This document shows, piece after piece, positions 47,177 to 64,000 of a stretch of DNA of 64,000 nucleotides. The notes beneath the pieces are model-generated. The model saw only the letters and a list, made by a program, of their open reading frames with translations, was not told where the DNA came from and did not search any database. The translations under genes were made by a program, and so were the position numbers. The stretch covers positions 1 through 64,000 of the forward strand of contig NZ_JASGBQ010000001.1 in assembly GCF_030053595.1 (NCBI RefSeq), written 5' to 3'. This DNA comes from Fusibacillus kribbianus (GTDB taxonomy: Bacteria; Bacillota; Clostridia; Lachnospirales; Lachnospiraceae). How positions within the stretch are numbered: position 1 is the stretch's first letter; each line of letters opens with the position of its first letter.

Positions 47177-47185
47177 TCCAGGCTG

Positions 47186-47226
47186 AAAAAGCGGCTGTCG
47201 GAAAACCTCCGACAGCCGTGTTTTAT
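47186..47226. terminator. Bidirectional terminator between hcp and the MerR gene
   Basis: CGGCTGTCGGA (47192-47202) pairs with TCCGACAGCCG (47208-47218), A5 before and T4 after. Confidence 0.8.
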
Positions 47227-48080
47227 CAATGGTTCTTTTCCCTCACCGGGATCTGGATCTCAGACAGCCATTCCTCCTCGGAATCCTTATTCCAGACACC
47301 ATCAATATAAGATTCTCTGATGTTTCCTGCAATTTCATATCCATGATCCTCAATAAACTGAAGCAAAACCGCATAGGACCTGGGAAACTCTGCATAAGAT
47401 CCTTTGTGGAAGATGCACGCCGCCGTGACCTCCTCCACAGCATAAAATCTCAGATTTTCCGTATCTTCTTTAAGCTCCGTCACCGCCTCACAGATCTCCA
47501 CATTGAGCTCTGTTTCTTTAAAGCCCGGATCCAGATACTGGGTAAAGCAATACTCCGGAAGTGCACATTCGCATCCGAGCCGCTCCATTTCCGCCCCCAT
47601 TTCAGGCATGAGATCAAAGAGCGCATCATAGGAATCGATGGTCTTCCTGCTGGATACAATGATACATGCCGGCAGGGTTTTCACCAGCACCGGCGCGTGC
47701 AGTGATGCGGATTCATCGAGCAGATAAGAATCGATCACTGCGATCTGCCTTGTCAGCTCAGCGATCCGGGACAGAAGTCTGGATTTCTTTTTCTGCAGCA
47801 GCGTCTCCTTGGCTTCCCCCGAATGGATCTGTTTGATTTCATCCAGGGTAAATCCCGCCTGCTTTAAGGCTGTGATCTGGTGGATCCCTGCCATCTGGTC
47901 AAGGGTATAATAACGGTATCCGTTTTCTTCCTCCACATAGACAGGGCTTAACAGCCCCTGCTCCTCATAAAAGCGGAGCGTTTTAACCGTAATATGATTC
48001 ATCTGGGCAAACATGCCGATCCGATACAGATGGTTTTCTGTCCGTATCCTGCATGGCTCATGTTTTTCTTTCATCTGCAT
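47226..48080 (-). CDS. MerR-family regulator with GyrI-like effector domain
   Basis: A 284-residue BmrR-like protein: HTH YRIGMFAQMNHITVKTLRFY (about 19-38), EENGYRYYTLDQM, coiled-coil dimer helix about 90-125, then a GyrI-like multidrug-binding domain about 135-284. It is the third gene after the ABC exporter pair, and the operon promoter carries a MerR-type dyad, so it likely activates its own operon on binding a cationic drug. RBS GGGAG. Confidence 0.88.
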   Translation of the reverse strand: MQMKEKHEPCRIRTENHLYRIGMFAQMNHITVKTLRFYEEQGLLSPVYVEEENGYRYYTLDQMAGIHQITALKQAGFTLDEIKQIHSGEAKETLLQKKKSRLLSRIAELTRQIAVIDSYLLDESASLHAPVLVKTLPACIIVSSRKTIDSYDALFDLMPEMGAEMERLGCECALPEYCFTQYLDPGFKETELNVEICEAVTELKEDTENLRFYAVEEVTAACIFHKGSYAEFPRSYAVLLQFIEDHGYEIAGNIRESYIDGVWNKDSEEEWLSEIQIPVREKNH

Positions 48081-48084
48081 TCTC

Positions 48085-48825
48085 TTACTCCCATCTGAAG
48101 GTTTTGACTGCTGTCGTGATGCAAACTGCTGCGATCAATGTTAAAATCAGGATCTCCCTCCCCATTGCAGCAACCGGAATTCCCGCCGAAACGCCTTTCA
48201 TCAGCCGGATCCCCACGCCCAGCGGCAGATATCCGGCCACAAGCTGCAGACTCTTCGGAAAAAGCTCCACAGGAATCGTTGCTCCGGAGAACAAAAGCAT
48301 GGGGAAATACAGCAGCGAGGCTGCCACATTCATGCTTTTTACCGTCTTACAAAGTGCAGCAACAAGAAGTCCTATGGAAAACATGGAGATCATGGTAAGC
48401 AGCCAGGCTCCTATGTATATTATCACATTTCCGCTCATTCTGTAACCAAATCCTGCACAGGCTGTGATGGTGACGCATATTGCGGAGAGCGCTGCCATCA
48501 CTCCGCTGCAAAGCATATCGACGAAAAGCAGACGCGCAGGGGAACAGGGACTGCAGTAAAAATGCTTCAGTATTTTCTTATCCCTGTAATCCACCATCAC
48601 AATGGGAATGCTCATAAATGCGCTGCAGCAGATCCCAACTGTTGAGATTGCCGCAAAGGAGCTTTCCAGATAGGTCAGTCCGCTGTCTCCCGCCATCTTT
48701 GACCCGACGATCAGTCCAATAAGAAACAGTGTAATCACCGGCATACATAAATTGAAGATAAAGACATCCACTGAGCGGAAAAACAGCTTCTGTTCGATTT
48801 TATACAGTTTAAAGAATTGCTTCAT
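48085..48825 (-). CDS. ABC-2 type transporter permease
   Basis: A 246-residue membrane protein with six helices (VFIFNLCMPVITLFLIGLIV, AISTVGICCSAFMSIPIVMV, LLFVDMLCSGVMAALSAICV, the LYFPMLLFSGATIPVELFP ABC-2 signature near the fifth helix). ATG 48825 has AGGAGG and overlaps the ATPase gene by 17 nt. Forms a drug or lipid exporter with the ATPase. Confidence 0.9.
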   Translation of the reverse strand: MKQFFKLYKIEQKLFFRSVDVFIFNLCMPVITLFLIGLIVGSKMAGDSGLTYLESSFAAISTVGICCSAFMSIPIVMVDYRDKKILKHFYCSPCSPARLLFVDMLCSGVMAALSAICVTITACAGFGYRMSGNVIIYIGAWLLTMISMFSIGLLVAALCKTVKSMNVAASLLYFPMLLFSGATIPVELFPKSLQLVAGYLPLGVGIRLMKGVSAGIPVAAMGREILILTLIAAVCITTAVKTFRWE

Positions 48826-49573
48826 TGTTGTCTGCCTCCTCTTTTTCCGAATCCTCAACGGTTTCTCCCATGTACCAGAGATATGCTTCCTCCAGTGTCC
48901 TGTAGGGAGACGATTGAAGGATCTCTCCGACGGTTCCTTCGATCACTTTTTTGCCTTTCTTCAGGATACAGATCCTGTCACACAGAGCTTCGGCCTCCTC
49001 CATATAATGGGTCGTCAGGAAAATGGTAAGCCCCTGTTTCTTAAGCTTTTTTAACGTTCTCCACACTTCCCGTCTCGCCGCCACATCAAGTCCGGTCGTC
49101 AGTTCATCAAGAAAAATCACCTCCGGATTTCCGATCAGGGCCAGTACCACCGACAGCCTCTGCCGCTCCCCTCCCGAAAGCTTCATCACCGGGCTTTTTG
49201 TCAGTTTTTCAAGACCAAACTGCTTCAGAAGGCTCTGATAATCCGCCGGCTTTCGATACAGAGACGCATATTCCTCACAGACCTCTCCCACCCGTATTGC
49301 CGCCTGATAGGAGGAGGATTGGAACTGTACTCCGACCTTCTCAAATATCTCCTTCCTGTGCTTTGCGGCCTCCAGGCCAAACAGCTCAAGCTCTCCAAAA
49401 TCCGGCTTCTTAAGCCCCAAAATCATTTCAATGGTGGTGGTTTTTCCTGCCCCGTTATGCCCCAGAAGCCCAAAGACTTCTCCACTGCAAACGGTAAAAG
49501 ACAGACCATCCACCACCCTTCGCCCGTCATACTCCTTTGCTGCATTCTTCACATCAATACAGGTTTTGTCCAT
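48809..49573 (-). CDS. ABC transporter ATP-binding protein
   Basis: A 254-residue ATPase: Walker A GLLGHNGAGKTTTIEMI (about 35-51), Q-loop VQFQSSSY, signature LSGGERQRLSVVLAL, Walker B VIFLDELTTGLD (note Leu-Thr where Pro-Thr is usual) and switch TTHYMEEA. ATG 49573 has AAGGAGG; the longer open frame to 49708 crosses the promoter. Confidence 0.94.
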   Translation of the reverse strand: MDKTCIDVKNAAKEYDGRRVVDGLSFTVCSGEVFGLLGHNGAGKTTTIEMILGLKKPDFGELELFGLEAAKHRKEIFEKVGVQFQSSSYQAAIRVGEVCEEYASLYRKPADYQSLLKQFGLEKLTKSPVMKLSGGERQRLSVVLALIGNPEVIFLDELTTGLDVAARREVWRTLKKLKKQGLTIFLTTHYMEEAEALCDRICILKKGKKVIEGTVGEILQSSPYRTLEEAYLWYMGETVEDSEKEEADNNEAIL

Positions 49574-49604
49574 AAAAAAATCCTCCTTGTCTTTCTCAAG
49601 AAGG

Positions 49605-49636
49605 ATCTTACACCCTCCCCTAAAGGGGAGAGTCAA
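49605..49636 (-). promoter_or_regulatory. MerR-type promoter of the ABC exporter operon
   Basis: Minus strand: TTGACT (49636-49631), overlong 20-bp spacer, TAAGAT (49610-49605). The spacer holds the dyad CTCCCC-TTTA-GGGGAG (49615-49630). An overlong spacer with a CTCCCC/GGGGAG dyad is the BmrR-type activator architecture. Confidence 0.8.
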
Positions 49637-49789
49637 GGGGAAAAATTCAATTTTGGCAAATTTCTGAGCCGCACCGTTATCCATTTCAAAAGATTTTTCC
49701 ATAATCATTTCTCATTATTGAGCGGCAGCAGAATAACTGTCTCGATTTTGCTGATCCTTAGAAAATCAGGAAATCTCAAATATATAAAT

Positions 49790-50113
49790 TCACCTTTGAA
49801 CCATACTCAAAAATAACGTATTTAACAAATCCCAAGAGCCACTTGTATCTTCTTGTCCTTCCGCAATACTTTTAATTTCAGGTAATGCTCTTTCAATATA
49901 TTCATTAAGCACCTGAACCTTTGCCCCTTTTATCCATTTAGCTGCCAATAATGGTCTTAATGCATAAAAATATTTTTTCAGGCGTATTTTTTCATCTTTT
50001 AAATACTCACGATAGTGTGTTTCTGCCATGTGCCAATAGTGAAACAGACTTTTCTTTATCGAGAAAAATTCCGGCAAGCTTTTCTTTAATTCCGCCAAAA
50101 TAGCATCCTTCAC
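49790..50113 (-). pseudogene. Fragment of a YcgL-type nucleotidyltransferase
   Basis: The 107-codon frame (EFFSIKKSLFHYWHMAETHY, REYLKDEKIRLKKYFYALRP, LLAAKWIKG) matches the helical C-terminal part of RNA-repair-type nucleotidyltransferases (PF10127-like). The catalytic GSxx...DxD N-terminal half is missing, and KGAKVQVLNEYIERALPEIK follows too early, suggesting another internal loss. Confidence 0.65.
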
Positions 50114-50144
50114 AATCTTATACCTCTCATACAGATACTATACG

Positions 50145-50465
50145 TTATGATTTATTTTTCTCTTCCAATTTTTCCAACAGATACTTTCTTGCAGCAGCCA
50201 TTTCTTTTTGATGCATCTCAAGCGCCCGCATCCTGCCGCGAATCTTCATCCTCTTTGATTGAACTTCCTCACTTTCTCCCAGGTCCAGTTCTTTCTCTTT
50301 CAGCCCATTTTTCATTTCCTGCAAACGATTCTCCAGAACCTTCACCTGCTCTATATTATTCAGGCAATACTTCCTGCAGATATATTCTCCATTCAGCAAC
50401 ATTCGATTTTTCTCTGCCCCAATCCGTCGAAGTGCTTTTTCCTCTTCTTTCGGAGTTGGAATCAT
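50145..50465 (-). CDS. Unrecognised charged coiled-coil protein (106 aa)
   Basis: From ATG 50465 the frame reads MIPTPKEEEKALRRIGAEKN and ends KYLLEKLEEKNKS, almost entirely charged helix with heptad-like Leu/Ile spacing. The frame is open upstream to 50591 but that part overlaps mobile-element genes on the same strand. It could be a real small protein or the tail of a larger gene cut by the element boundary near 50500. Function unknown. Confidence 0.4.
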   Translation of the reverse strand: MIPTPKEEEKALRRIGAEKNRMLLNGEYICRKYCLNNIEQVKVLENRLQEMKNGLKEKELDLGESEEVQSKRMKIRGRMRALEMHQKEMAAARKYLLEKLEEKNKS

Positions 50466-50496
50466 TTCCCACCAAAGAAATAAATAGGATGCCGCA

Positions 50497-50622
50497 TCAT
50501 CTGCCGCCCCAGGTCCGATAGTCCCGTAGAAATTCTTCACAGAACATGGTTTCATTGATTTTCTTCCCGTCAAACCACGCAGGATTTTCAACGTGTGTGG
50601 TCTGCATCATTTCCTCGCTCAT
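50497..50622 (-). pseudogene. 5' end of an ICE/phage D5-type primase-helicase gene
   Basis: ATG 50622 has AAGGAGG. The 41-codon frame (MSEEMMQTTHVENPAWFDGK, KINETMFCEEFLRDY) is the start of a large replication protein that normally follows the CHC2 gene in integrative elements; after DY the match ends and a stop follows. It overlaps the CHC2 gene end. This marks the left truncation point of the mobile element. Confidence 0.6.
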
Positions 50623-51217
50623 GGCGCACATCCTCCTTTTTCTTACTTGCGGTGTACTCTTTCAGAAAAGTGATCTTGCTGCCTTTCATCAGCTCGTCCA
50701 CCACGGCAACCCGTTCTTCCAGATCGCCCACTGTCAAAATGTCTGCCAGATATTCGATATAATCAAGCATCTGGCAGGCTTCCACAAAACGGTCATCCAG
50801 AGCATCGTCCGGTGTCTTGGGTGCATACCGTACTTTCCAATCTTCCAGAAGATGCAGATAATCCGTCAGCGCCCGGAAGCACAGCATTTCGTCCTCCCGG
50901 AACTGACGGATACAGGGATGCTTCGACTTGGGTAAAACTGCGGCAGTAGGCGGTTTCTGGTCAAGCCCGAAATCCGCTGTCAGCTTCTGCGCTGCTTCAT
51001 AACTGCTCAGATCGAACAGCCTTGCCACGAAGTTGATCACATCCCCCTTGGCTCCGCAGCCGAAGCAGAAGAAATAGTCCTCGTTCAGCTCCAAGCTCGG
51101 ATGCCTGTCGTTGTGGAACGGGCAGCAAGCCATACCGTAGCGGCTCACCTTCAGCCCGTAGTGTTCGGCGGCTTGTCTTACGGGAACTGCCGCCTTGATG
51201 GTTTCAAATAAATTCAT
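50588..51217 (-). CDS. CHC2 zinc-finger (DNA primase-type) mobile element protein
   Basis: A 209-residue protein. MNLFETIKAAVPVRQAAEHY, then the zinc finger with CCPFHNDRHPSLELNEDYFF and CFGCGAKGDVINFVARL (Cys, His, Cys, Cys) as in DnaG N-termini and integrative-element replication proteins. There is no TOPRIM catalytic domain. Start ATG 51217 lies 7 bases past GGAGG. The pair with the truncated primase gene is typical of Tn1549-like or related elements. Confidence 0.85.
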   Translation of the reverse strand: MNLFETIKAAVPVRQAAEHYGLKVSRYGMACCPFHNDRHPSLELNEDYFFCFGCGAKGDVINFVARLFDLSSYEAAQKLTADFGLDQKPPTAAVLPKSKHPCIRQFREDEMLCFRALTDYLHLLEDWKVRYAPKTPDDALDDRFVEACQMLDYIEYLADILTVGDLEERVAVVDELMKGSKITFLKEYTASKKKEDVRHERGNDADHTR

Positions 51218-51320
51218 ACGCATACCTCCATAATTAATTTGACAATTCTTGCTTGTCACCTGAATATACGGAGAAAACAGCTGTCAACCGAAAAATCCGG
51301 CACTTCTGCAAAAAAAGAAA

Positions 51321-51367
51321 TCGCCGCCCTGAATTTTTGCAAAAATGCAAAATACACAGGGCGGCGA
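51321..51367. repeat. Long inverted repeat in the mobile-element divergent region
   Basis: TCGCCGCCCTG (51321-51331) and CAGGGCGGCGA (51357-51367), perfect 11-bp arms around a loop with repeated TTTGCAAAA-like words. It lies between divergent CHC2 and HTH genes; possibly a terminator or control site. Confidence 0.6.
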
Positions 51368-51385
51368 ATGTTCACAATATGCATC

Positions 51386-51414
51386 TTGATATTGTTCTGC
51401 AAATAGAATATAAT
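51386..51414 (+). promoter_or_regulatory. Promoter of the mobile-element HTH genes
   Basis: TTGATA (51386-51391), 17-bp spacer, TATAAT (51409-51414). The word ATATTGTT occurs at 51389 and 51413 and inverted at 51373-51380 (AACAATAT-like), suggesting repressor sites. Confidence 0.6.
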
Positions 51415-51447
51415 ATTGTTAGATTTAGACGAAAAGGGGTGTTGAGG

Positions 51448-51654
51448 ATGCGCTATTTATCAACTTTTGAGGTGGCAGAGAAATGGGGGATTTCTCCGCG
51501 TCGTGTGGGTGTTCTCTGTAGCCAAAACCGCATCCCCGGCGCACAGCAAGCAGGAAGCCGTTGGATTATCCCAGAAGATGCAGAGAAGCCTGCTGATGCC
51601 AGAATCAAAAGCGGCAAATATATCAAAGCAAAAAATAAGGAAGGGGGGACATAA
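51448..51654 (+). CDS. Small HTH DNA-binding protein (excisionase/MerR-like)
   Basis: A 68-residue protein, MRYLSTFEVAEKWGISPRRV then CSQNRIPGAQQAGSRWIIPE, the winged-helix fold of excisionase-like proteins on integrative elements, with a Lys-rich tail. ATG 51448 follows GGGTGTTGAGG. First gene of a rightward operon. Confidence 0.8.
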   Translation: MRYLSTFEVAEKWGISPRRVGVLCSQNRIPGAQQAGSRWIIPEDAEKPADARIKSGKYIKAKNKEGGT

Positions 51655-51657
51655 CGA

Positions 51658-52429
51658 GTGGAGAATACATTTTTGCCCGGTACTGTCAGACAGCTTGCTC
51701 AGCCGTTTCCTAACCGGAAAGACGGACAAGATCGGTGACGAAAACATCATCCGGATTGCCAGAGTATTCAATGTGTCCACCGACTTTCTTTTAGGCGTGA
51801 CCAATGTTCCCGATAGAAAAAATTATGAGATTGACGAGCTGGGCTTGTCAGCCCAGGCGGCACGAAACCTCTACACCGGCAAGGTTAATGCACAAGTGGT
51901 CAATCGGCTCTTGGAAAGTCCCCGCTTTGCTGAACTAACCTACATATTGGAGCAGTATTTCAATGACACTATCGCATCCGGCTTTGCAGCTCAGAATCAG
52001 CTTTACGCTACCCTCGCCAATCTGACAAGAAGTACCGTACAAACCGATGCAGCAAAAGAAGCTGACAAGGACATTAGCCGTTTACGGACACCGGCATATC
52101 AGGCAGATCTCGCCACCATTGAAGCTCAATTTATGGCGGCAGTCAAAGAAGTGAAGAAAGAGATCGGTCACGATTTTACAGTACAGCAGGCCCTCACCAA
52201 AGAAGCCGCCGAGCGAATGTTTACAGAGCTTACAAAAGGTCAGGATATGGAAAACCCCAAGGTCACACCGGAGCAAGTGACCGAACTGATTATCGACAGC
52301 GTTGCCGGTATGGATGGGGTCAACCAAGAAGCACTGGACAAGCTCAGTCAGGCGTTGACCGCCTTTATGCAGACCACCTTAGATCAGGCGGCAAAACAGG
52401 AGAAAGACGATGAAAAACCGGAGCAATGA
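51658..52429 (+). pseudogene. Mobile-element XRE-type HTH protein, N-terminal deletion with frameshift
   Basis: GTG 51658, after AAGGGGGG, starts VENTFLPGTVRQLAQPFPNR and soon stops. The body is in another frame: LLSRFLTGKTDKIGDENIIR, VFNVSTDFLLGVTNVPDRKN and on to a Gln/Glu-rich end at 52429. The segment between TVRQL and the recognition helix (first part of the XRE HTH) is lost, and the frame shifted there (about 51695). The rest (about 245 residues) is open and could be expressed from an internal start, but no good one is seen. Confidence 0.65.
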
Positions 52430-53072
52430 GCAGCTCTGCGCTCTGGCACAGAAGGGGAATACGAACGCCCGTGACCTGCTTCTGGAAAACAATTTCGGTT
52501 TTATCCGCAAAACCGCCAACGAGATTTATTTCGGTATGAATCTGGGCGAAAGCGAACTCAGTATCGACAAAGACGACCTGGAGCAGGAGGGCTGTATCGG
52601 CTTATTGGACGCCATCCCTCGCTTTGACAGCAGCAAAGGCACTAAGTTTCTGACCTATGCAGCACCATCTATCCGAAATGCCATGACCAATCTGATACGG
52701 GATGCGTTTTCTCGGTACGAACAGCGGATGGTTGATACCAAAGACGGGCTTGCTTTTCAGAAAATCCGTCTGGATGAAGTTGTCCCCGGTGAGGAACGGA
52801 TGCTGCATATCGAAGCAATTGCTGACCCGATTGCCAAATCACCGGAGCAGATTTATGTGGAACAAGAAATATTGCGTGAACTGTATGCAGGACTCGATAG
52901 GATTGGAAGGCGAGAGCAAGCCTATCTGCTGTACCGTTATGGCTTCACAGACGATATAGAGCATACGACGATTGGAGCAGCAATCCACTTTAATCTGAGC
53001 GAAAGCCGAGCCAAGAAAACCGAGGAACAGGCTATGGACAACCTCTGGTTAGAGTTGCCGTGGTGGTTTTAG
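52410..53072 (+). CDS. Mobile-element sigma-70 family RNA polymerase factor
   Basis: A 220-residue sigma factor. Region 2 is clear: NARDLLLENNFGFIRKTANE, DLEQEGCIGLLDAIPRFDSS and KGTKFLTYAAPSIRNAM. Region 4 is weaker (LLYRYGFTDDIEHTTIGAAI, FNLSESRAKKTEEQAMDNL). Such factors are carried by conjugative elements of gut Firmicutes. Its start overlaps the preceding frame by 20 nt. Confidence 0.85.
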   Translation: MKNRSNEQLCALAQKGNTNARDLLLENNFGFIRKTANEIYFGMNLGESELSIDKDDLEQEGCIGLLDAIPRFDSSKGTKFLTYAAPSIRNAMTNLIRDAFSRYEQRMVDTKDGLAFQKIRLDEVVPGEERMLHIEAIADPIAKSPEQIYVEQEILRELYAGLDRIGRREQAYLLYRYGFTDDIEHTTIGAAIHFNLSESRAKKTEEQAMDNLWLELPWWF

Positions 53073-53668
53073 TGCGTGTCGCTGCGGAGGGACGGGGGCT
53101 TATATATACCTCTGCTTCCTTCTCCGGTCAGTCGGATTTTGTTTCTCAAAAATTCTGCATTTGTGTCAACACCGTTGTCACAAAATCCGCCTGCCCTACT
53201 GCCGCCGAAAAGCGTCTGTCCGCTTCAATCTGCCTATGTCGCAGATGCCGCAGCCAGCCCCTTTCCAGCGTCAGCCGGAAGCAAAGGTATAACACACTAG
53301 ACTTTCCTACGGAAAATCGTGTGCCAACAGGGCTGCTACTCGCCCCTATTGGAAACCCAGAGCCAAAGGGATTGCCCCCCTCTGGACACCTGCAATTTTC
53401 TTCACACAATGGTACCCAAACTGTAAAAACTCAGTTTGGAACCGGCACGAAGAAAATGACAAATCTGAAAACTCTCTTTGATCTGTATCAGTGATTTTTC
53501 AGATTTTCCTACATCAGCAATTGCCTTGTGTTTGCAATTTCCCATGTGTCTGCTGTAGACAGATTTATTCTTAGTTACTCAGAGAGAGGGCCTTAAACTC
53601 AAAAAGGCAAAAACAAAAAAATACTTAAGGAAAATAAAAAAGAGGAAACTACATAAGGAGGAATGCAT
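53073..53668. other. Non-coding stretch with two inverted repeats
   Basis: No convincing gene in about 590 bp. It contains CCAAACTG (53416-53423) / CAGTTTGG (53432-53439), perfect with an 8-bp loop, and AAATCTGAAAA (53461-53471) / TTTTCAGATTT (53496-53506), perfect 11-bp arms. Between and inside them a 12-codon frame MTNLKTLFDLYQ (53458-53496) may be the start of a lost element gene. The 3' part (53580-53660) is A-rich. A transfer origin or the promoter for the next operon could lie here. Confidence 0.5.
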
Positions 53669-55228
53669 ATGGCTTCACTAACACATGTCTGTATGTGGTC
53701 AGAAAACGGCTGGAAGCGTATCACAGCAGAACAAGCCGCCCGATTGCATCCAGGTGGGACTGTATCTGCTCATAGCGGTCTGTTTATGTGTGAACTCTGT
53801 GGCCAGTATGTCATTCTTACCGATGGCGACATTAGGATACGTTACTTCAAACACAGTGCCTATGAAAAAAGCAAAGGTTGTCCTGAGCGTACATTCGGAG
53901 CTGGCTATTCAATCTCTTACGGTTCTCAGGAACACGATTTACCAATCCGTATTACAAGCGTATCCTCATCTTCTTTCAGCTTTGAAGTCGGCTTGATTCG
54001 TGCTCCAATAAGTTCTCTCAACAAGGATTTCCGTATAGAAATCAAACCAAAGGGAGCATTTGATGTATCCTATGTGTTCACCAAAGAACGACTGAACTAC
54101 GACAGTATTACATATCTTCCTATCGGTGAAAGGCCATTTGAAAAATACACTCTCAGTTTCCAAAATGGAAGCGATAAATTACGTGAATTCTGGCCGGCAG
54201 AGATTAAAGGCATTGAGCCGGAAGGTACGTTGTTTGAAAAAGTTTCCGGTAAAAAACTCTCATATGATGCCGATGTTGAGATTGGTAAAGAATACTACCT
54301 GCTAAAACGTGGCTACATCTATAGGAAGTCATTCAGCAGCGTGCGAATTCAAGAAATCATGCAAAAACGAATCGGGTGGGAAACTTGGAGTCTCTATGTG
54401 GTTTCTGCATCTGCATTTAATGAAGATGCAGCCCGATTCTATCTCGAGTTCCATTGTCGGCTGACAGATCACCCTGTTTCATTGCAACCGGTATGGCCGT
54501 TATTTGTCGAAGGAAATTATATTGTTAAGCACAATCAAAACAGTATGTATATGCTTATCGAAGGTAATGTAGCCGCAGTTAAAACATTTCCTTCTGTGAC
54601 AGTTCGTCAGCTAAATTACAATTCATCTCAGTCAAAACTATATGAGGTGTTTTGTTCCGGCAGACAGCAGTTAATATCTGCTGGCCGCACTCAAGCCTTA
54701 CAATACACATACCTTTGGAAAGAGCCTCTTGACCAGGTGGGCTTGCATCCAGAAGTTTCAGTAACCGATATTGCAGGTGCTGAGGTTGATCCTGGCGAGA
54801 CCGATACTCTACCGCACGACAAAACATTGCGCTTCAAATCAACATTTGATGGAGAGCTAATTATCTTCAACAATAACCGTGTTGTAGATAAGCGGAAATT
54901 ATCCGCTGACAAATATATAGAGTTGAACGGACTATCCTACGGTTTAGGCGTTCAAGTTGTCATTGGCCTTGATGTCATCTGGCAAATCGATTTCAAGAAG
55001 CAACAGCCCATCGTTGTAAATGACGAAATTGAAATGCTGAAGCGAATTACTAATGTATCAGGGGCAACAATCCCGGCTCCGCACTCTTTGCGAAATATGT
55101 TAGCTGGTATGAATTGCTATCCGCAGGTATGTCAGTGGATACGAAAATGTATTAAAAATGGCACTATTAATGAGCAATCATACCGCAGATTGCAAGAGGC
55201 CTATCGCAGCATGAATACGAATAGATAA
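53669..55228 (+). CDS. CoiA-like zinc-finger protein, first gene of candidate defence operon
   Basis: A 519-residue protein of unknown function. Near the N-terminus SAHSGLFMCELCGQYVILTD followed by RYFKHSAYEKSKGCPE gives a C-x2-C...H-x8-C zinc-binding pattern like the CoiA/nuclease-associated finger (usually YxCPxCGxxVxLR...HFAH). The remainder (about 90-500) looks all-beta, with many alternating polar/aromatic strands, and no catalytic motif. ATG 53669 lies 7 bases after AAGGAGG; the ATG two codons earlier abuts the site. Composition is clearly AT-richer than the region left of 50 kb. 11 bp before the next gene. Confidence 0.7.
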   Translation: MASLTHVCMWSENGWKRITAEQAARLHPGGTVSAHSGLFMCELCGQYVILTDGDIRIRYFKHSAYEKSKGCPERTFGAGYSISYGSQEHDLPIRITSVSSSSFSFEVGLIRAPISSLNKDFRIEIKPKGAFDVSYVFTKERLNYDSITYLPIGERPFEKYTLSFQNGSDKLREFWPAEIKGIEPEGTLFEKVSGKKLSYDADVEIGKEYYLLKRGYIYRKSFSSVRIQEIMQKRIGWETWSLYVVSASAFNEDAARFYLEFHCRLTDHPVSLQPVWPLFVEGNYIVKHNQNSMYMLIEGNVAAVKTFPSVTVRQLNYNSSQSKLYEVFCSGRQQLISAGRTQALQYTYLWKEPLDQVGLHPEVSVTDIAGAEVDPGETDTLPHDKTLRFKSTFDGELIIFNNNRVVDKRKLSADKYIELNGLSYGLGVQVVIGLDVIWQIDFKKQQPIVVNDEIEMLKRITNVSGATIPAPHSLRNMLAGMNCYPQVCQWIRKCIKNGTINEQSYRRLQEAYRSMNTNR

Positions 55229-55239
55229 GGAGATGCATT

Positions 55240-58002
55240 ATGAATTACATTGATCTTCTTACTCAGGAAGAAAAACCAATCCTCTGCAGAATCATCACTG
55301 GTAGAGATTTCAAAGAACTCTTTAAAAGAAACGAACAGGAATTCTCGAAAATACGAAAAGGATTCAGAGCCAAATCATTGACAGAGCAGCAAGCGCTTTC
55401 GATTGCTATAGTCAATGTTGATAAGCCCTTTATTGCAATGTGGGTCAATACAAGGGTAGATATCTGGCTTAAGGAAATTCAGGAAAACATTGAGGAACTT
55501 GAAGAGGAGGGTTCAACGCATGACATTGCCCTGGCATCGACTATGCTTGACTCCGTCTTTGCCAATAATGTTGATTTATACCTCAAACTTGCAGGAAAAA
55601 CTATGGATGCGGATGCCCGCTCTAAACTTCATGAAAGAATGGAGAGCATCAAATCTGAGCGTGCAAGGAATGCGGAGGTGGCTGACCGTATTAAGGTTTT
55701 GGAAGAAGAAAAACGCCATCTACTCGATCAAATTGCTGCTCAGCAGAGTGTTAATACTATAAAGGCAGAATACAAACGGAAAATACAAGAGATTGAACAG
55801 GATAAAGACACATTGGAATCCTTGTTAGCTGAGGCGCAAGAGAGAATTACGGAGTTGCAGACTGCTCCTACCGCTGCTAAAAGTGACGATGCCGATTATC
55901 TCGCACAGTTTGACGATACAGATACTTCTGTTCTGCCCTCTGTTGGTAGCGATGAAATCGTTTCTTTATGTGGTGTTATCTCAGATTACAATGGGCAGAA
56001 ATGGCTTATTCGTTATGCTGATTTGAGTCATAATGGGCACTATCACATTTTCCGCAAAAGTGAAGATGTTCCGCCGTACTTCACAAATAGAGACAAGATT
56101 TTCTATAAGGACGGCCCTTCCAATGACGGTTTTTATGGCATTTGGGCTTGGTCCGCAACTCCGAATGAGAAGGACCCTTCCAGGGATTATATATTATCCC
56201 GGTACAACATGGACCTTGATGCCATTGAAGTCGTTACCATTTCAGAAGCATCAAACCTTGACAACCTGATCAATCTGCTAAAAAACGGAATCGAATACCA
56301 ACCTCATAGTCATAGAGTCATGTTCGCCTTTTATGCATCCAAAGGACAGTACATGGGCATTCTGTGCAACACCCAAGAACTCAACACGGTTAATGGAAAA
56401 ACTGCCTTTGCTGAAGATTGCATTGAAGTACCAGTATATGAATTTACCGGTGGCAACATTTTGCGTTTGGATAATGGGCTCTCTTTCTATAGAAATGCGT
56501 TTGCTGGTCTTCCAAGTAAGCTTTATCAATTGAAAAGTCCCCTTGATATTGTAAAGAATATCGTTTTCTCTTCAATTTCTTGGGGTACATATAAAACAAG
56601 AGGGTTGACTCGTGCCGAGTATAGAACCTTCAAGGATTTTCTCGGTGCAATTCCAGTTGACGACATAACGTGCAAGATTGAGACTGCGTGCCGTTGCTCC
56701 AATTCCGCTGCTAAAGAATTGCTGGATGAATTCCTAAATGTGGTCTGGAAATACGTTGATGAAGATAGTTTAGAAGACGAAATAATCCTCTCTGCTATTT
56801 CTGCAAGTACTGAACTTCAGGAAAGAATAAAAGCACTCATTCGTACGGATTGGGAAGCAGAGAATAAGAGTTTATTAGCTGAAGCCCAGAAGAAACTCGA
56901 TTCACTTGATGCCCAGTTAAAATCTGCTACTGTTAGTTTAATCGAAGCGCAAGAAGCATTTAATAAAACTAAATTGGAAGAAGAACGTCTTGCCGGTATC
57001 ATAGCTGAAAAGGAAAAACTGGCTGAGGATGTTGAAGTTGCAGTTGCTGAAAGAATCCAAAAGGCGCGCGAAAACGCGGCAGATTTCATTGCAAATATGG
57101 CATTCATTGGTGGACAACCAATTCAAGTTGCAGCCACAAAGGCTCCTGCCTCAGTTGAAGTTTTGCCCAAACCTGTTATTACCCCATATCACACTTTTTC
57201 AGCATTCGAGGACCTCAATGATCTCGAAGTTCATCACTCTTGGGCAGATGTCATTAATACAGCTGCATTTGAACTCGGAGAGGCCGGTGTAGCAGAAAAA
57301 TACAGAAGCGGCCTAGCCGTGTTCCTCTGCGCTGCCTATATCGAAAAACAGCCAATTTTTCTTGTTGGCCCTAATGCAATTGACATTGTTCAAGCATTCA
57401 GCGCAGCCGTAACAGGTTATAAATATGGAATGCTCTGCTGTGAGGGCGGTTATTGCAATCAGGTAATCACTGAAATTGGCACCGATGGCGAAGACATCGT
57501 GATAATCAACAATCTTCTTGCAAGTGGCTGGATGAACAGACTCCCGGAGATTCTTTCTCAAAAAGATATTTTCTATGTTGCCACCCATCCATATGCAGAA
57601 GATATCCAAGTTGAGCCAAAGAGCCTGTACGGATTTATGCTACCGCTGTTTACAGAGTTTTTTGTGGATGAAAAAGCTACTGGAAAATACTGTGGAGGTT
57701 ATTTTGCTGAGGACTTCAAAGCCTACTCAACGCCAAAGGGTACACGTAAAGATTTAAGGGTCCTTTCAAAATTAAAGATAAGTTCGTTAGTCAGGAACCG
57801 AATCAACAGACTTGTTGCTACGATGCACGGCATTTACTCTGCAACAACAACGGATGAGGACTTCTTATATGCTGTCCTTCCTATTGCTTATGCTTCACTG
57901 GAAATTAATGAACTCACAGAGGCGATTGCTGATCCTCAAAAGGGTATCGCAATTTCTGAAGGCCTCAAGCGTGATCTGCAGTATGTTTTAGGAGAATTCT
58001 AA
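55240..58002 (+). CDS. 920-residue coiled-coil protein with degenerate AAA-like domain
   Basis: Residues 1-95 are helical; 125-215 (RARNAEVADRIKVLEEEKRH, YKRKIQEIEQDKDTLESLLA) and about 550-625 (KKLDSLDAQLKSATVSLIEA) are coiled coils. Between them, about 235-500, lies a beta-rich domain. The C-terminal part resembles a McrB/MoxR-like AAA module: KQPIFLVGPNAIDIVQAFSA sits where a Walker A should be but has no GK[ST]; EDIVIINNLLASGW where Walker B should be lacks the DE; then IFYVATHPYAED. It is probably a structural, non-hydrolysing ATPase-like subunit. TAATG overlap with the next gene. No known family was recognised. Confidence 0.6.
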   Translation: MNYIDLLTQEEKPILCRIITGRDFKELFKRNEQEFSKIRKGFRAKSLTEQQALSIAIVNVDKPFIAMWVNTRVDIWLKEIQENIEELEEEGSTHDIALASTMLDSVFANNVDLYLKLAGKTMDADARSKLHERMESIKSERARNAEVADRIKVLEEEKRHLLDQIAAQQSVNTIKAEYKRKIQEIEQDKDTLESLLAEAQERITELQTAPTAAKSDDADYLAQFDDTDTSVLPSVGSDEIVSLCGVISDYNGQKWLIRYADLSHNGHYHIFRKSEDVPPYFTNRDKIFYKDGPSNDGFYGIWAWSATPNEKDPSRDYILSRYNMDLDAIEVVTISEASNLDNLINLLKNGIEYQPHSHRVMFAFYASKGQYMGILCNTQELNTVNGKTAFAEDCIEVPVYEFTGGNILRLDNGLSFYRNAFAGLPSKLYQLKSPLDIVKNIVFSSISWGTYKTRGLTRAEYRTFKDFLGAIPVDDITCKIETACRCSNSAAKELLDEFLNVVWKYVDEDSLEDEIILSAISASTELQERIKALIRTDWEAENKSLLAEAQKKLDSLDAQLKSATVSLIEAQEAFNKTKLEEERLAGIIAEKEKLAEDVEVAVAERIQKARENAADFIANMAFIGGQPIQVAATKAPASVEVLPKPVITPYHTFSAFEDLNDLEVHHSWADVINTAAFELGEAGVAEKYRSGLAVFLCAAYIEKQPIFLVGPNAIDIVQAFSAAVTGYKYGMLCCEGGYCNQVITEIGTDGEDIVIINNLLASGWMNRLPEILSQKDIFYVATHPYAEDIQVEPKSLYGFMLPLFTEFFVDEKATGKYCGGYFAEDFKAYSTPKGTRKDLRVLSKLKISSLVRNRINRLVATMHGIYSATTTDEDFLYAVLPIAYASLEINELTEAIADPQKGIAISEGLKRDLQYVLGEF

Positions 58003-59012
58003 TGAACAAGTATAATGGGCTGCTTTCGTCAGTGGCGCACAAGTATCATATCTTCAAAGGAGCACGAGAAACAGAGAACGAATGGAAAACTCGTCTGGTG
58101 TATAGTATCTGTGGAATGATGGCTTATGCTTCGCTCTGGGACGACTCGGAAGAAGACCCCATTTCCATTGTGCACTTAAAAAGAAAAGTCCGCAGTATGC
58201 TTGCAAATTACAAATCAATGTACCCGGAGCTTTCTGGCAGCTTACCATATGTTTCCGAGGAACTCGAAGATGAGATTGTAGACCAATTCTTAAGTACGGG
58301 AGTGGTTTATCACCGCCCCAACCGAATAGCTCCATCAATGAAGCACGAAGAACCGTTTGGTGATATCTTATTTCAAAGAGGCATTGCTCTGGATAGTATT
58401 TCCTGCGTATCCGGTATTGGGTTTTATTCAAAACAGTATGGAGCAAAAAATCCAGATAGGACAAAGGCAATGTTCGGTCTCGAACAAGAGAATTTACAAG
58501 CATTGTGGCGTATAACGCTATCTTCTGCTTCGTGGAAATCCAATCTGTCGTTTGAGCAAAATACAGAGTACCTTCGCTTAAAACAACCCTTCTCTCAAGG
58601 GTACTGGGTAAACAAGCCGGATACGACTGGTACTGTTTCGATCCTTCGAACCGGAATGAAAGGTTCACAGTTGTACTATCTTTACCGCTATTCTGGTACT
58701 ACGATAGAAGTCAGCCCGCTCCCACAGTGGCAGGTAGAGTCCTACAATTACAGATCGCTTGCATGTGCTTGTCTCTCAACCTATGGAACATTGCCGCCAA
58801 TAGAGTATTTCGAGGATGGAGCATTAGTCCATGTACATATGAATTATTTGCTCCCACCACGTGAACTTGAGTTTTTAAAACTCTATAGCTGGCCTGAGAT
58901 ATGCACATCACTCCCGTGCAATTTTAGGCGGAAACTCTCAATAGAAGTCTTTACAGCCATTAAAAATGTTCTATCTGATGAGGGATATGAATTTAAAGGA
59001 GGGACAATCTGA
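58002..59012 (+). CDS. 336-residue protein of unknown function in candidate defence operon
   Basis: Starts in a TAATG overlap and ends in a TGATG overlap, so it is translationally coupled on both sides. N-terminal helical part (KYHIFKGARETENEWKTRLV, YSICGMMAYASLWDD), then YHRPNRIAPSMKHEEPFGDI, a central SGIGFYSKQYG, and FSQGYWVNKPDTTGTVSILR before an alpha/beta tail. No catalytic or zinc motif seen. The only clue is its position just before the giant helicase, comparable to small accessory proteins in Druantia-type operons. Confidence 0.6.
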   Translation: MNKYNGLLSSVAHKYHIFKGARETENEWKTRLVYSICGMMAYASLWDDSEEDPISIVHLKRKVRSMLANYKSMYPELSGSLPYVSEELEDEIVDQFLSTGVVYHRPNRIAPSMKHEEPFGDILFQRGIALDSISCVSGIGFYSKQYGAKNPDRTKAMFGLEQENLQALWRITLSSASWKSNLSFEQNTEYLRLKQPFSQGYWVNKPDTTGTVSILRTGMKGSQLYYLYRYSGTTIEVSPLPQWQVESYNYRSLACACLSTYGTLPPIEYFEDGALVHVHMNYLLPPRELEFLKLYSWPEICTSLPCNFRRKLSIEVFTAIKNVLSDEGYEFKGGTI

Positions 59013-62000
59013 TGCCAAACGGAGCGAATTCTGTTCATAAGCAGTTGCGAACGGAGTTGGAAGACTATATTAAATCACAGTATTTCGGAAAGTCTCCCCT
59101 CCTGCTCTCTGCCTTAAGCGATCATATTGATGATGAGGGACTGCTTTACCAGAAACCCTTTATTGAGTCATCTCCGGCATACGTTACTGTCCGAAACGGC
59201 ATTGAAACAGCATCCATAGAACCTTGGCTGAAAGATTATTTTTTACAGTTGGCAGAAGCGGGTATCGGTGTTTTCCCATCTCCATTTGCTCACCAGATAT
59301 CTGCGCTTGAAGCAGCAACCAGAGGTGAAAACCTGTTTGTGTCAACGGGTACTGGTTCTGGTAAAACGGAGTGTTTTATGTGGCCGCTTCTTGCGAAGAT
59401 GGCTGATGAAGCGAGAAACTCCAAAGAATCATGGGCAAAACGAGGTGTTCGCACAATTGTCATGTATCCCATGAACGCTCTGGTTTCAGATCAGGTTAGC
59501 CGACTCAGAAGGATGATTGGAGATCCTGATAAGAAGTTTATCAAGATATTCAGAAACACCTGCGGTGACGAAGTTCGCCGTCCCCAATTTGGTATGTATA
59601 CTGGTCGAACCCCATACCCTGGAGCGCAGCCTTCTACAGAACAGGACAGAAAACTTGAAAAAACTTTGGCCAGAATGTCTTTCCCGCAAAGTGATTCTGA
59701 ACAAGAATACTTCAATCACCTTCTCAAAGAGGGAAAGATCCCCGCAAAGGCAGATATGCATCAGTTTCTGCAAGGACTTCATGAGAGTAGGCATATTCCA
59801 AACGATGAGGACGCAGAGCTAATAACCCGCTTTGAAATGCAGCAATTTTGCCCAGACATTCTCATCACAAACTATTCTATGCTGGAATATATGTTGCTGC
59901 GCCCTAGAGAACAGAAAATCTGGGATGATACTCGCGAGTGGCTTGCTTCGAACAACGAGAACAAATTGCTGTTTGTTATTGATGAAGCACACATGTACCG
60001 TGGTTCATCAGGCGGTGAAGTTGCGTTGCTGATTCGCAGACTTTTCCATAAACTTGGTATTAGCCGTGACCGCGTGCAATTTATACTTACAACCGCAAGT
60101 ATGCCCAACAAGAATCAGCAAGACGTTGATTCAGTAATGAAGTTTGCAAATGAGCTTACTGCCTCCGACAAAGCAACCCGGTTTTGCTATCTCACCGGCG
60201 AAAGAGAAGTCATTGATGGTCAGTTGAAATATGACATACCCGCTGAGCTTCTCTTAAGCTCAGATCCTAGCCAATTTGAGGACAAGGATGACTTAAAGCT
60301 TTCTGCGCTCTTGTCGTTCTGGCGTCAATTAGAAGGCTTTGACCAGAATATCAACTCCTTGGAAGCGATCTGCAACTGGATGTACGACAATCTTGTCTAT
60401 TATCGCCCGTTCCATGAACTCATCAAGTATTGTCGTGGGAATGCAGTATCCCTGGGAGAGTTGTCTTACGGTATCTTCCCGGATCTCAGTCAGGAAAATG
60501 CTTTAAAAGCGGTCAGTGTCCTTCTGGCAATTGCACCACTTGCAAAAAACGCCAAGGGTTCTGTCCTTTTCCCTGCACGCATGCATATGCTTTTCAAAGG
60601 CATTTCTGGAGTTTATGCCTGTGCCAATGCGAATTGCAGCCGTTCTCATTCGGAAGGAGGTCTCACTTTAGGTGAGGTCTATTTGTCTGATGGTAATTTG
60701 ATTTGCCCCCATTGTGGCAGTGTGGTCTATGAGCTTTATAATGACAGACGCTGTGGTGCGCTATTCTTCAAGGGCTATGTCCTTGAAGATGACTCGGAAC
60801 TTCATGGAAATGTATACCTGTGGCGCTACCCCGGTCAGTTAATGGATCACAGGATGAAAGAAGTACATCTGTTTATTCCAACTGACGATTTTGAGCTACC
60901 TGCAAAACAGGGTAAAAACGCCATCAAACCCTGTTATCTTGATGTGAAGAGCGGGTTTATCAACTTTACGGATGACTCTTCCGCTGGTAAGTCATGGATT
61001 AGAAAGCTATACTACTGCAACTACTCTGCAAAAGGCAGGCCGCAGATCATTACCTTCCCGACCTGCCCGCATTGCAGGCATCAACTTTCTACATCGCAGC
61101 TTACCTCATTCAGCACTCGAGGTAATCAGTCTTTCTTCAACTTGATTAAATCGCAGTTCCAACTGCAACCTACTGTACCAGGAAAGGAGAGTGATCCTGT
61201 TCGTTTTCCTAACGAGGGACGCAAGGTTTTGCTTTTCTCTGATAGCCGTCAACGTGCAGCAAAACTGGCTAGAGATATGTCTGATGCTTCGGACATTTCT
61301 GCTGCAAGGCAGTTATTTGCAATAGCGATCAAAACAATGGAAGAGCAAGCAGTCGAGCAATCCATGAATACGCTGTACGATTATTTCTGCCTTGCAGCTG
61401 GTCAGCGTCATGTGCAGATGTTCCATGCCGATGAACGCACAAAATTCGCTGAAGATTGTGCTTCCGCGCTGAATAATTACAATCGATGCGTAAAACGGGG
61501 AAGAGACTACGCTCCGCGATTTACGATTGCGAATGCGCCTGTACAGATGCAAGAATACCTTCTTCGACTGTTCGCTGGAGGTTATAACACTTTGTACGAC
61601 TCCGCTACGAGCTGGATTGAACCTACCGATCAGGCACTTTTTGATGCTGTCGATGCTCTCGAGGAAAACCATGTGACGGTCACCGATGAGGAGTTTATCA
61701 ATCTCTTCAATGCTTGGATTCTATCGATCTGTGATATGTCTACTGCTCTTGGCCATACCATCAATGATACGGTTCGGTTAAAGGTTCGCCCAAAGCGAGG
61801 TGGTTATGGACTTGATAAAGATTGGGAGTTTTCGAAAGTCATCCGAGAGATCATGGGTTGGAGTGACGGAAATGAAACTGAGATGGCTTGGAAACGAGTA
61901 TTGAAAGAAGCATTCCTTGACTCAGCGCAACCTGATAACGGCAAACTATATATTGATCTTTCCAGAGTAAAGACACGTTATGATGCTACGCATGTATGGT

Positions 62001-64000
62001 ACAAGTGTGAGCAGTGCTCTGAGTTGACACCTTTCTTCCTAAAAGGCAGATGCCCAAGCTGCGGTTCTACTCATATCCACAAGATGGAATCCGACGAATA
62101 CGAAGCACTTAGTTTCTGGAGAAGGCCGGTTGCTGACGCGGTTCAAGGTGAGCCAATCCATGTGATCGACACAGAGGAGCATACTGCTCAGCTCTCACAT
62201 AAAGACCAGCGTGACGACCTTTGGAGTAAGACCGAACAATATGAGTTACGCTTCCAGGACTTGATTCAAGATGGTGAAACGCCTGTTGATATTCTCAGCA
62301 GCACAACCACCATGGAAGTTGGTATTGATATTGGCTCCCTAGTTGCAGTTGGTCTGCGAAACATTCCTCCAATGCGTGAAAACTATCAACAGAGAGCTGG
62401 CCGTGCGGGCCGACGTGGATCTAGTTTATCTACAATCGTTACCTTCTGTGAAGATGGTCCTCATGATACATTGTACTTCAATGACCCGATTCCCATGTTC
62501 CGTGGCGATCCCCGCAGGCCGTGGATCGATGTGCGAAGCGAGAAACTCCTCCAGCGCCATCTGGCTATGGTTGTCTTACAGGAATTTCTCGCAGAAAAAC
62601 ATATGAGCCTTGATACAGTTCCCGCGGCCGTTTTTCTCGAAGATTTCCTTGACAGTTTCAAGAACTATCTTGCTTCCTACAGTGTTGATAAGGACAAGCT
62701 CCTTTTGCCTATTGGAGTGGTATTTCATTATTCAGAGTTTGCGGATGAACTCAAAGAGGCCCTTGATACACTTAAAGAAAAATGCCATGCTCATCCCGAG
62801 CTTTTTGGTGTAGATGAAGGTGCCAAGGAAGGCGATGCAAAAGTTCTCTTGGATGCTCTTTATGAAGAAGGTATCATCCCAACATATTCGTTCCCGAAGA
62901 ACGTCGTCAGTACTTATATACCAGATATGCACGGGAAAATCCTTTACGAGGTTGAACGTGGACTTGATGTAGCTATTGGCGAATATGCTCCTGGCAGAGC
63001 AATTGTGGTTGATAAGCAAACCTATCAGATTGGCGGATTCTACTATCCTGGAAGTGAACGTCATCACGGTCAATCACTAACCCCGGCACGTGCCTACGCA
63101 GAAGACCCAAATTATGTGAAGCAGATTATCTCTTGTCCTGAGTGCGGCTGGTTTGGTTTGATGGAGGAAAACACAAAACAGTGCCCATTCTGTGGGAACG
63201 ATGATCTCAAAATCACTCGTGAAATGATGCGTCCATGGGGCTTTGCACCAAGAAATGCTGAAGCAATACCGGATGTTCAGCTATCAGAAGAGTATACCGC
63301 CGTACAGCAGCCTCTATATTCAACTCTACCAGATGCAGAAGAAATGAAACTTGCCCCAGGTTGCAAGAACATACGAATTGCTTCGCGAACAAATCAGCGA
63401 ATCATCATGCTGAATAAAGGATCGGATGACAAGGGCTTTATGGTCTGCAAAGATTGTGGCGCTGCTATGCCAGGCGACGATATTTCTGTTCTGAATGACG
63501 TTAACAGGCCATACAAGTCAAAGTATGCTCGAAGCAGATGCCGTCACGGTAATTCCTTTAATGTGAATCTTGGCTATGACTTCATAACTGATATGTTGGT
63601 CCTTGAATTCACAATTGACGACAAGGTTATTGATGCACGCCGTAATGATAATCCATGGCTTAGCCGTGCAGCTCAATCCTTAGCTGAAGCGCTGCGACTG
63701 GTAGCAAGCAAAAAACTCGATGTTGAATTCACCGAACTTGTCACCGGTTATCGTCTCAGGACTGGGGCTGAAGCCTCCTATGTCGATATCTATCTTTACG
63801 ATAGTCTATCGAGCGGCGCTGGTTATGCTGTCAGTGTAGCCGATGCAATTGCCGAACTACTATCCGATATGAAAGAGCTGTTGAGTTCCTGTGATTGTGG
63901 ATCTGCGTGTTCCAAATGCCTAAAGCATTACAGGAACCAATATGTACATGGCATGCTTGACCGCTTTGCTGCACTTCAGCTCCTTGAATGGGGTGTTGAT
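59012..64000 (+). CDS. Giant DEAH-box helicase with zinc knuckles and DUF1998-like C-terminus (partial)
   Basis: 1663 codons are visible with no stop; it continues past the edge. SF2 motifs: Walker A STGTGSGKTECFMWP (about 110-124), DEAH in LFVIDEAHMYRGSSGGE (about 325), FILTTASMP, a second RecA lobe with VLLFSDSRQRAAKLARDM, STTTMEVGIDIG and QQRAGRAGRRG. Cys pairs recur: CANANCS with CPHCGS, CPHCRH, CEQCSE with CPSCGS, CPECGW with CPFCGN, CKDCGA. The end (LYDSLSSGAGYAVSVADAIA, CDCGSACSKCLKHYRNQY) is the DUF1998/MrfB-like module. Architecture and size suit DruE of Druantia, or DISARM DrmA relatives; which one cannot be decided by eye. Confidence 0.9.
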   Translation, partial: MPNGANSVHKQLRTELEDYIKSQYFGKSPLLLSALSDHIDDEGLLYQKPFIESSPAYVTVRNGIETASIEPWLKDYFLQLAEAGIGVFPSPFAHQISALEAATRGENLFVSTGTGSGKTECFMWPLLAKMADEARNSKESWAKRGVRTIVMYPMNALVSDQVSRLRRMIGDPDKKFIKIFRNTCGDEVRRPQFGMYTGRTPYPGAQPSTEQDRKLEKTLARMSFPQSDSEQEYFNHLLKEGKIPAKADMHQFLQGLHESRHIPNDEDAELITRFEMQQFCPDILITNYSMLEYMLLRPREQKIWDDTREWLASNNENKLLFVIDEAHMYRGSSGGEVALLIRRLFHKLGISRDRVQFILTTASMPNKNQQDVDSVMKFANELTASDKATRFCYLTGEREVIDGQLKYDIPAELLLSSDPSQFEDKDDLKLSALLSFWRQLEGFDQNINSLEAICNWMYDNLVYYRPFHELIKYCRGNAVSLGELSYGIFPDLSQENALKAVSVLLAIAPLAKNAKGSVLFPARMHMLFKGISGVYACANANCSRSHSEGGLTLGEVYLSDGNLICPHCGSVVYELYNDRRCGALFFKGYVLEDDSELHGNVYLWRYPGQLMDHRMKEVHLFIPTDDFELPAKQGKNAIKPCYLDVKSGFINFTDDSSAGKSWIRKLYYCNYSAKGRPQIITFPTCPHCRHQLSTSQLTSFSTRGNQSFFNLIKSQFQLQPTVPGKESDPVRFPNEGRKVLLFSDSRQRAAKLARDMSDASDISAARQLFAIAIKTMEEQAVEQSMNTLYDYFCLAAGQRHVQMFHADERTKFAEDCASALNNYNRCVKRGRDYAPRFTIANAPVQMQEYLLRLFAGGYNTLYDSATSWIEPTDQALFDAVDALEENHVTVTDEEFINLFNAWILSICDMSTALGHTINDTVRLKVRPKRGGYGLDKDWEFSKVIREIMGWSDGNETEMAWKRVLKEAFLDSAQPDNGKLYIDLSRVKTRYDATHVWYKCEQCSELTPFFLKGRCPSCGSTHIHKMESDEYEALSFWRRPVADAVQGEPIHVIDTEEHTAQLSHKDQRDDLWSKTEQYELRFQDLIQDGETPVDILSSTTTMEVGIDIGSLVAVGLRNIPPMRENYQQRAGRAGRRGSSLSTIVTFCEDGPHDTLYFNDPIPMFRGDPRRPWIDVRSEKLLQRHLAMVVLQEFLAEKHMSLDTVPAAVFLEDFLDSFKNYLASYSVDKDKLLLPIGVVFHYSEFADELKEALDTLKEKCHAHPELFGVDEGAKEGDAKVLLDALYEEGIIPTYSFPKNVVSTYIPDMHGKILYEVERGLDVAIGEYAPGRAIVVDKQTYQIGGFYYPGSERHHGQSLTPARAYAEDPNYVKQIISCPECGWFGLMEENTKQCPFCGNDDLKITREMMRPWGFAPRNAEAIPDVQLSEEYTAVQQPLYSTLPDAEEMKLAPGCKNIRIASRTNQRIIMLNKGSDDKGFMVCKDCGAAMPGDDISVLNDVNRPYKSKYARSRCRHGNSFNVNLGYDFITDMLVLEFTIDDKVIDARRNDNPWLSRAAQSLAEALRLVASKKLDVEFTELVTGYRLRTGAEASYVDIYLYDSLSSGAGYAVSVADAIAELLSDMKELLSSCDCGSACSKCLKHYRNQYVHGMLDRFAALQLLEWGVD

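Follow-up and report, generated by a model that had tools for sequence, protein, structure and literature searches.

A probable mobile druBCDE form of Druantia type I in Fusibacillus kribbianus

Four coupled genes lie at the right end of a 64,000-nucleotide stretch of Fusibacillus kribbianus DNA (contig NZ_JASGBQ010000001.1, positions 1 to 64,000; this whole stretch is hereafter called the window), and the last of them encodes a large helicase. A preliminary description of this DNA had presented the operon as a candidate undescribed defense system, with a helicase resembling those of Druantia and DISARM and with partners unlike DruA, DruH, DrmB, or a methylase. The locus thus raises the question of whether the operon constitutes a distinct system or a divergent form of a known one. 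Our analysis points, with high probability, to a mobile operon of Druantia type I, a known anti-phage system, that retains only druBCDE and acts through the mechanism outlined below. Type I comprises a five-gene set, druABCDE, and a table in the available portion of the source marks strains with only part of this set (PMC7251935). Since DruA is missing here and nearly throughout the gut-bacterial branch to which the operon belongs, the set is incomplete, and the DruA-less form is a variant of type I. Accordingly, the operon is the druBCDE of a known type and not a new system; the earlier suggestion of a new Druantia type holds to the extent that the five-gene set is incomplete.

Identity of the four proteins

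PADLOC classifies the window helicase as DruE1 with 1719 bits over residues 3–1661, and the other DruE classes (E2, E3, and E4) reach at most 626 bits, in agreement with the initial recognition of a Druantia-like DUF1998 helicase. The protein contains a Walker A motif at residue 113, DEAH at 324, motif VI (QRAGRAGR) at 1127, and the zinc cysteines of the MZB/DUF1998 end starting at 1627. The tested Walker A, DEAH, and motif VI residues are invariant in 87 of 87 DruE sequences, and the window protein shares 32% identity with the P. putida DruE. The DruE helicases of Druantia types II, III, and IV belong to this family and share the MZB/DUF1998 end, but the partner proteins of these types are unmatched by window genes 1–3 at E 0.01. 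DISARM (DrmA, DrmB), Dpd, and ARMADA also employ this YprA-like helicase family, according to the available text of PMC12458937; however, the window helicase scores no higher than 37 bits against DrmA and 82 bits against DpdJ. The matches listed for the four proteins, which for the helicase comprise 25 of 29 families, include no separate DrmB, methyltransferase, second helicase, or deazaguanine gene. An assignment to DISARM, Dpd, or ARMADA is therefore not supported.

Because the window proteins alone score weakly for DruB, DruC, and DruD, the homologs at related loci were grouped into families, with 63 sequences for B, 68 for C, and 82 for D, and hhalign was used to set these against alignments of the E. 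coli and P. putida proteins DruB, DruC, and DruD and against E. coli DruA. The gene 1 family matches DruB (97.2%, E 3e-11), the gene 2 family matches DruC (96.1%, E 3e-9, approximately 115 columns), and the gene 3 family matches DruD (94.4% over 252 columns), with each of the nine off-diagonal pairings below 1%. In PADLOC, E. coli DruA–D served as positive controls and were all recognized, and the window proteins gave weak matches to DruB1 (E 0.0056) and DruD1 (E 1.1e-6). The DruD1 model (PDLC00008) matched 45 of 45 relatives, down to 3.8e-33. As judged from these profiles, genes 1, 2, and 3 are divergent DruB, DruC, and DruD, contrary to the earlier view of the partners. The window therefore holds the DruB, DruC, and DruD of type I, of which DruC is the least securely identified, together with a DruE1-class DUF1998 helicase.

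The DruB-like protein matches CoiA_N with an E of 0.005, below the cut-off, and its C41, C44, H62, and C71 are invariant in 48 of 48 sequences, forming a CoiA_N-like zinc site. The preliminary description had spoken of a zinc-knuckle helicase; the invariant C-x2-C...H...C set lies in gene 1, and the helicase has eight CxxC motifs. A PDB sequence search with DruB yielded nothing useful. The DruB1 model PDLC00004 found no match across 369 genomes of the class to which Anaerobiospirillum belongs, and it appears too narrow here, because an Anaerobiospirillum genome with a DruB homolog (locus L049) was also unmatched.

In the structural model, DruC has two extended helices that we interpret as coiled coils (approximately residues 124–207 and 524–612), a beta domain (240–430), and a C-terminal MoxR/RavA-like AAA+ fold (666–911) lacking the Walker A lysine; GK[ST] is missing at the P-loop in 41 of 43 rows. 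The PDB sequence search with DruC returned almost only coiled-coil matches, and Foldseek gave no match for DruC or DruD at E ≤0.001. The best VIA-align Z score for DruD was 4.2, too weak to name a fold.

Overall, the window resembles the type I operons of E. coli and P. putida in its B-C-D-E order, its DruE1-class helicase, its homologous DruB, DruC, and DruD, and its proximity to mobile genes. It differs in lacking druA, in the distant likeness of its proteins, and in the length of DruC (920 amino acids, 627 in E. coli), whose modeled C-terminus is a degenerate AAA+ domain. The reading frames of all four genes are intact, and the ratio of nonsynonymous to synonymous substitution rates (dN/dS) against three relatives (L019, L021, and L023) is 0.05–0.33; from this sequence signature, the genes are genuine and under purifying selection.

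Absence and probable loss of DruA

The DruA of type I (DUF4338, PF14236) is absent from the window, and a profile search did not find PF14236 in the host genome, although the same profile was detected in two known DruA carriers as a positive control. A DruA hidden elsewhere in the host genome was rejected on this ground. In the genome records of relatives, the profile matched 0 of 49 and 1 of 31, so that DruA is absent from 79 of 80; L082 was left out of these counts because its genome is lacking, and the separate genomes possibly number fewer than 80, as L009 and L089, and likewise L007 and L057, have identical DruE. The single match (L159, in the genome of L056) is a 294-amino-acid open reading frame (ORF) followed by a 464-amino-acid ORF, located on a separate contig of at least 3516 bases on which no druE was seen. 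A DruA hidden Markov model built from four sequences likewise gave no match in L002 or in any of L019–L097.

DruA or DUF4338 was found near druE in all eight of the more distant DruE loci fetched: those of E. coli, P. putida, two haloarchaea (on the opposite strand), Meiothermus (downstream), Nitrosococcus, Paracoccus, and Leisingera. PADLOC classed seven of these eight helicases, all best as DruE1, and the eighth, L125, is nearly equal to L099. Across 5426 E. coli genomes, separate searches detected druA in 64 and druE in 69 (63 with at least 80% of druE). Two class-level relatives (L119 and L120) carry DruA homologs followed by ORFs of approximately 380 and 590 amino acids. On the Nitrosococcus plasmid L123 (1777–12526), druA is followed by genes for a 955-amino-acid protein and a 360-amino-acid protein and by druE1; the 955-amino-acid protein has no PADLOC match at E 1e-10, and the plasmid possibly represents another type I layout.

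A DruE tree with 94 rows, where the label "none" was also given to loci whose flanks are short, places the seven DruA carriers on one side of a branch with full support. A rooted tree of 37 rows was constructed with Nostoc DruE4 and P. luteola DruE3 added, the only ones fetched, as outgroups, from the other plasmid DruE matches; Leisingera was also named an outgroup. Here, the 28 DruA-less rows form one branch with a Shimodaira–Hasegawa-like approximate likelihood ratio test (SH-aLRT) support of 100, nested among DruA carriers. L056, with DUF4338 elsewhere in its genome, and L082 were kept as DruA-less. This topology fits a single loss, and DruA was likely lost once, at the base of the DruA-less branch. 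The single loss is not proven, because the rooted tree has long branches and its three outgroup rows do not form one group. The chosen outgroup Leisingera is itself a DruE1 with DUF4338 and falls among the carriers.

In the host order, a DruE-like match of any class (E ≤1e-50) was present in 13 of 392 genomes, including the host's own. A scan of the genome collection produced 127 relatives; the top 80 were retained, representing 79 loci, and the near relatives (86–99% DruE identity) within this set are mostly Clostridia. Relatives also derive from Pseudomonadota, Planctomycetota, Bacteroidota, Mycoplasmatota, and one archaeon, although several are metagenome bins and possibly misassigned. The four-gene form is common to the whole branch, mostly Bacillota. 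Five short-flank loci, when refetched, carried C-D-E without a nearby DruA or Eco47II-/EcoO109I-type restriction–modification (R-M) genes, with DruB in four of the five. Phage records contained two DruE matches, neither spanning 80% of DruE. In Anaerobiospirillum succiniciproducens, L049 (4071–22236) contains two tandem druBCDE copies, the second cut by the locus end.

Restriction–modification genes at the druA position and competing readings

A type II endonuclease gene immediately precedes druB in the same orientation in 13 of 68 DruB-bearing loci (a set that includes the window and P. putida), and in 11 of the 53 loci with at least 2 kb of upstream sequence. Two representatives belong to the Eco47II and EcoO109I families, and two scanned genes neighboring the endonucleases encode C5-cytosine methylases. 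All 13 loci fall in the sister branch of the 94-row tree, and the two families require at least two changes among themselves. Both virus-called contigs (L154 and L155) carry a methylase, an endonuclease, and druBCDE in a row; the further ORFs after druBCDE in L154 look phage-like by eye. L077 has a methylase without an endonuclease, and five loci (L019, L035, L037, L039, and L064) match the helix-turn-helix (HTH)–methylase query only, four of them through a 77-amino-acid HTH-like ORF. The window has no match to the sister-branch R-M genes. In L163 and L164, the ORF directly 3' of druE starts like a DNA adenine methylase, as judged from the letters.

These arrangements allow the tentative idea that druBCDE is a self-sufficient core and that the druA position accepts interchangeable modules. 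It would hold DruA in one group of lineages, nothing in the window branch, and in a sister branch a type II R-M pair (Eco47II- or EcoO109I-like, with at least two exchanges), whose cuts would supply ends for DruE.

In the mechanism that we favor for the type I operon reduced to druBCDE, DruE would be an ATP-driven superfamily 2 helicase of YprA/MrfA type, loading onto single-stranded or tailed phage DNA. DruB as a zinc protein, DruC as a coiled-coil hub with a degenerate AAA+ domain, and DruD with a possible winged helix would form a complex that activates DruE upon recognizing phage DNA or replication structures. Since no active nuclease was recognized in the four proteins, a negative resting on lack of match, the most likely output would be that the helicase disrupts phage replication or makes DNA accessible to host nucleases. 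DruA would serve as an accessory module that appears dispensable here, and the sister-branch R-M pair in its place perhaps supplies DNA ends. In the available portions of the literature, type III DruE loads onto 3'-tailed DNA and unwinds it (PMC13192584), the C-terminal Vsr domain of type I DruE is predicted to be inactive (PMC12458937), and DUF4338 is GNAT-like (PMC10853773). The two mechanistic Druantia papers found both concern type III, as far as their available text extends.

The most serious competitor, which we nonetheless regard as improbable, is that the operon without DruA works as a partner module and not as a stand-alone defense. It would depend on break-making enzymes from elsewhere, namely the R-M pair in the sister branch and other host or island nucleases in the window. 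The repeated placement of endonucleases of two families before druB and the core without a recognized active nuclease speak for this view, as does the requirement for RecBCD in the joint action of Druantia III with Zorya II, reported in the available part of PMC13192584. However, the window and 40 of the 51 other loci with at least 2 kb upstream (P. putida excluded) have neither endonuclease family at this position, and adjacency alone may reflect the clustering of genes in defense islands.

Very unlikely is a decayed type I operon that lost druA and no longer functions. The operon does lack one gene of the five found in the studied E. coli type, but the four-gene form is shared by the whole branch with records from other phyla, the window frames are intact with low dN/dS, and the DruA loss looks old in the rooted tree. 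Least probable is a separate, new system whose only link to Druantia is its DruE-type helicase, with genes 1–3 unrelated to DruB, DruC, and DruD: the weak or missing PADLOC matches of the window proteins and the longer DruC would suit it, but the cleanly diagonal profile matches, the same gene order, the DruD1 match in every family member, and the detected E. coli controls argue against it.

Several observations weigh against the assignment to a type I operon reduced to druBCDE, in addition to the rooting of the tree and the missing nuclease discussed above, and most of them concern DruC. Its hhalign match is the shortest and may be inflated, because it lies largely on the coiled-coil stretch. 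PADLOC gives no DruC match for the window's own protein. LmuB matches 18 of 43 DruC relatives, compared with 16 and 4 of 43 for the DruC1 models, and JetC, DndD, and DruG2 also match weakly (DruG2 in 2 of 43). We read the LmuB matches as coiled-coil likeness, and the identity of DruC is strengthened by gene order and by the DruC1 matches in other members. The relatives L041 and L063 retain GKS at the P-loop; judging from these residues, the loss of ATPase function in DruC may not be general. Finally, the Meiothermus helicase is only narrowly DruE1 (1033 versus 891 bits).

Genomic setting and significance

The coordinates of the operon and its left flank are summarized in the table. The gene junctions, an 11-bp gap followed by overlapping TAATG and TGATG, agree with the preliminary description of four coupled genes on one strand. 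Two start candidates exist for druB, at 53663 and 53669, and the latter better fits the AAGGAGG ribosome site. A sigma-70 promoter scan gave nothing clearly above shuffled sequences. The guanine-plus-cytosine content in 2-kb steps is 0.41–0.46 in the operon, compared with 0.46–0.57 in the rest of the window; the AT-richness noted earlier thus holds for the operon overall, but its right part overlaps the low end of the flank values.

Features of the operon and the adjoining left flank
Feature	Coordinates	Strand	Remarks
Mobile-element-type genes	50588..53072	−, +, +	CHC2 primase-type zinc protein (−), weak-HTH protein (+), sigma-70 region 2 protein (+)
Short leader with ribosome site	53643..53668	+	left boundary of the 97%-identity block in common with L019
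druB-like gene	53669..55228	+	519 amino acids; ORF, hhalign, alignment, PADLOC, CoiA_N match
druC-like gene	55240..58002	+	920 amino acids
druD-like gene	58002..59012	+	336 amino acids; possible winged helix at about residues 26–127 (weak)
druE helicase	59012..64000 in the window, to contig position 64258	+	1748 amino acids; PADLOC DruE1; Pfam-type domains DEAD, Helicase_C, MZB

The upstream genes are consistent with the earlier placement of the operon as cargo beside mobile-element genes, although the HTH match lies below the Pfam cut-off. Upstream stretches are common to L021, L023, L040, and L051 at 70–84% identity, and the block matching L019 extends from 26 bases before druB to the druE stop. 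To the right of the window, where druE continues for a further 258 bases, an ORF at contig 64608–66284 follows, whose product we take to be RlmD. This rlmD-like gene matches nine same-genus genomes, among ten congeners searched with the region, in a long match that begins only at approximately 64890–64909. The last approximately 300 bases of the ORF are unshared with the congeners and common to several other druBCDE-type loci. Given where the congener match begins, the island seems, from these comparisons, to end inside the 3' part of the rlmD-like gene, which is likely the integration site. No direct repeat marking the left end of the island was found. The left flank (45587–53600) gave mostly short matches against 12 genomes, except for part of the first gene in two congeners.

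The available text of the PADLOC paper describes a new type IV and no DruA-less form of type I (PMC8565338). Our literature search, of limited coverage and based on partial texts, found no description of a DruA-less type I or of its R-M coupling, and others may have seen it. Since PADLOC finds DruE securely, DruD in all 45 relatives, and DruB and DruC only in some, druBCDE loci are easily mistaken for an unknown system. The R-M pairs found in place of DruA may point to a common helicase core with a modular front end. The existence of a four-gene type I that is natural, old, and widespread gives an indication of the core components of the system and opens the role of DruA to direct testing.

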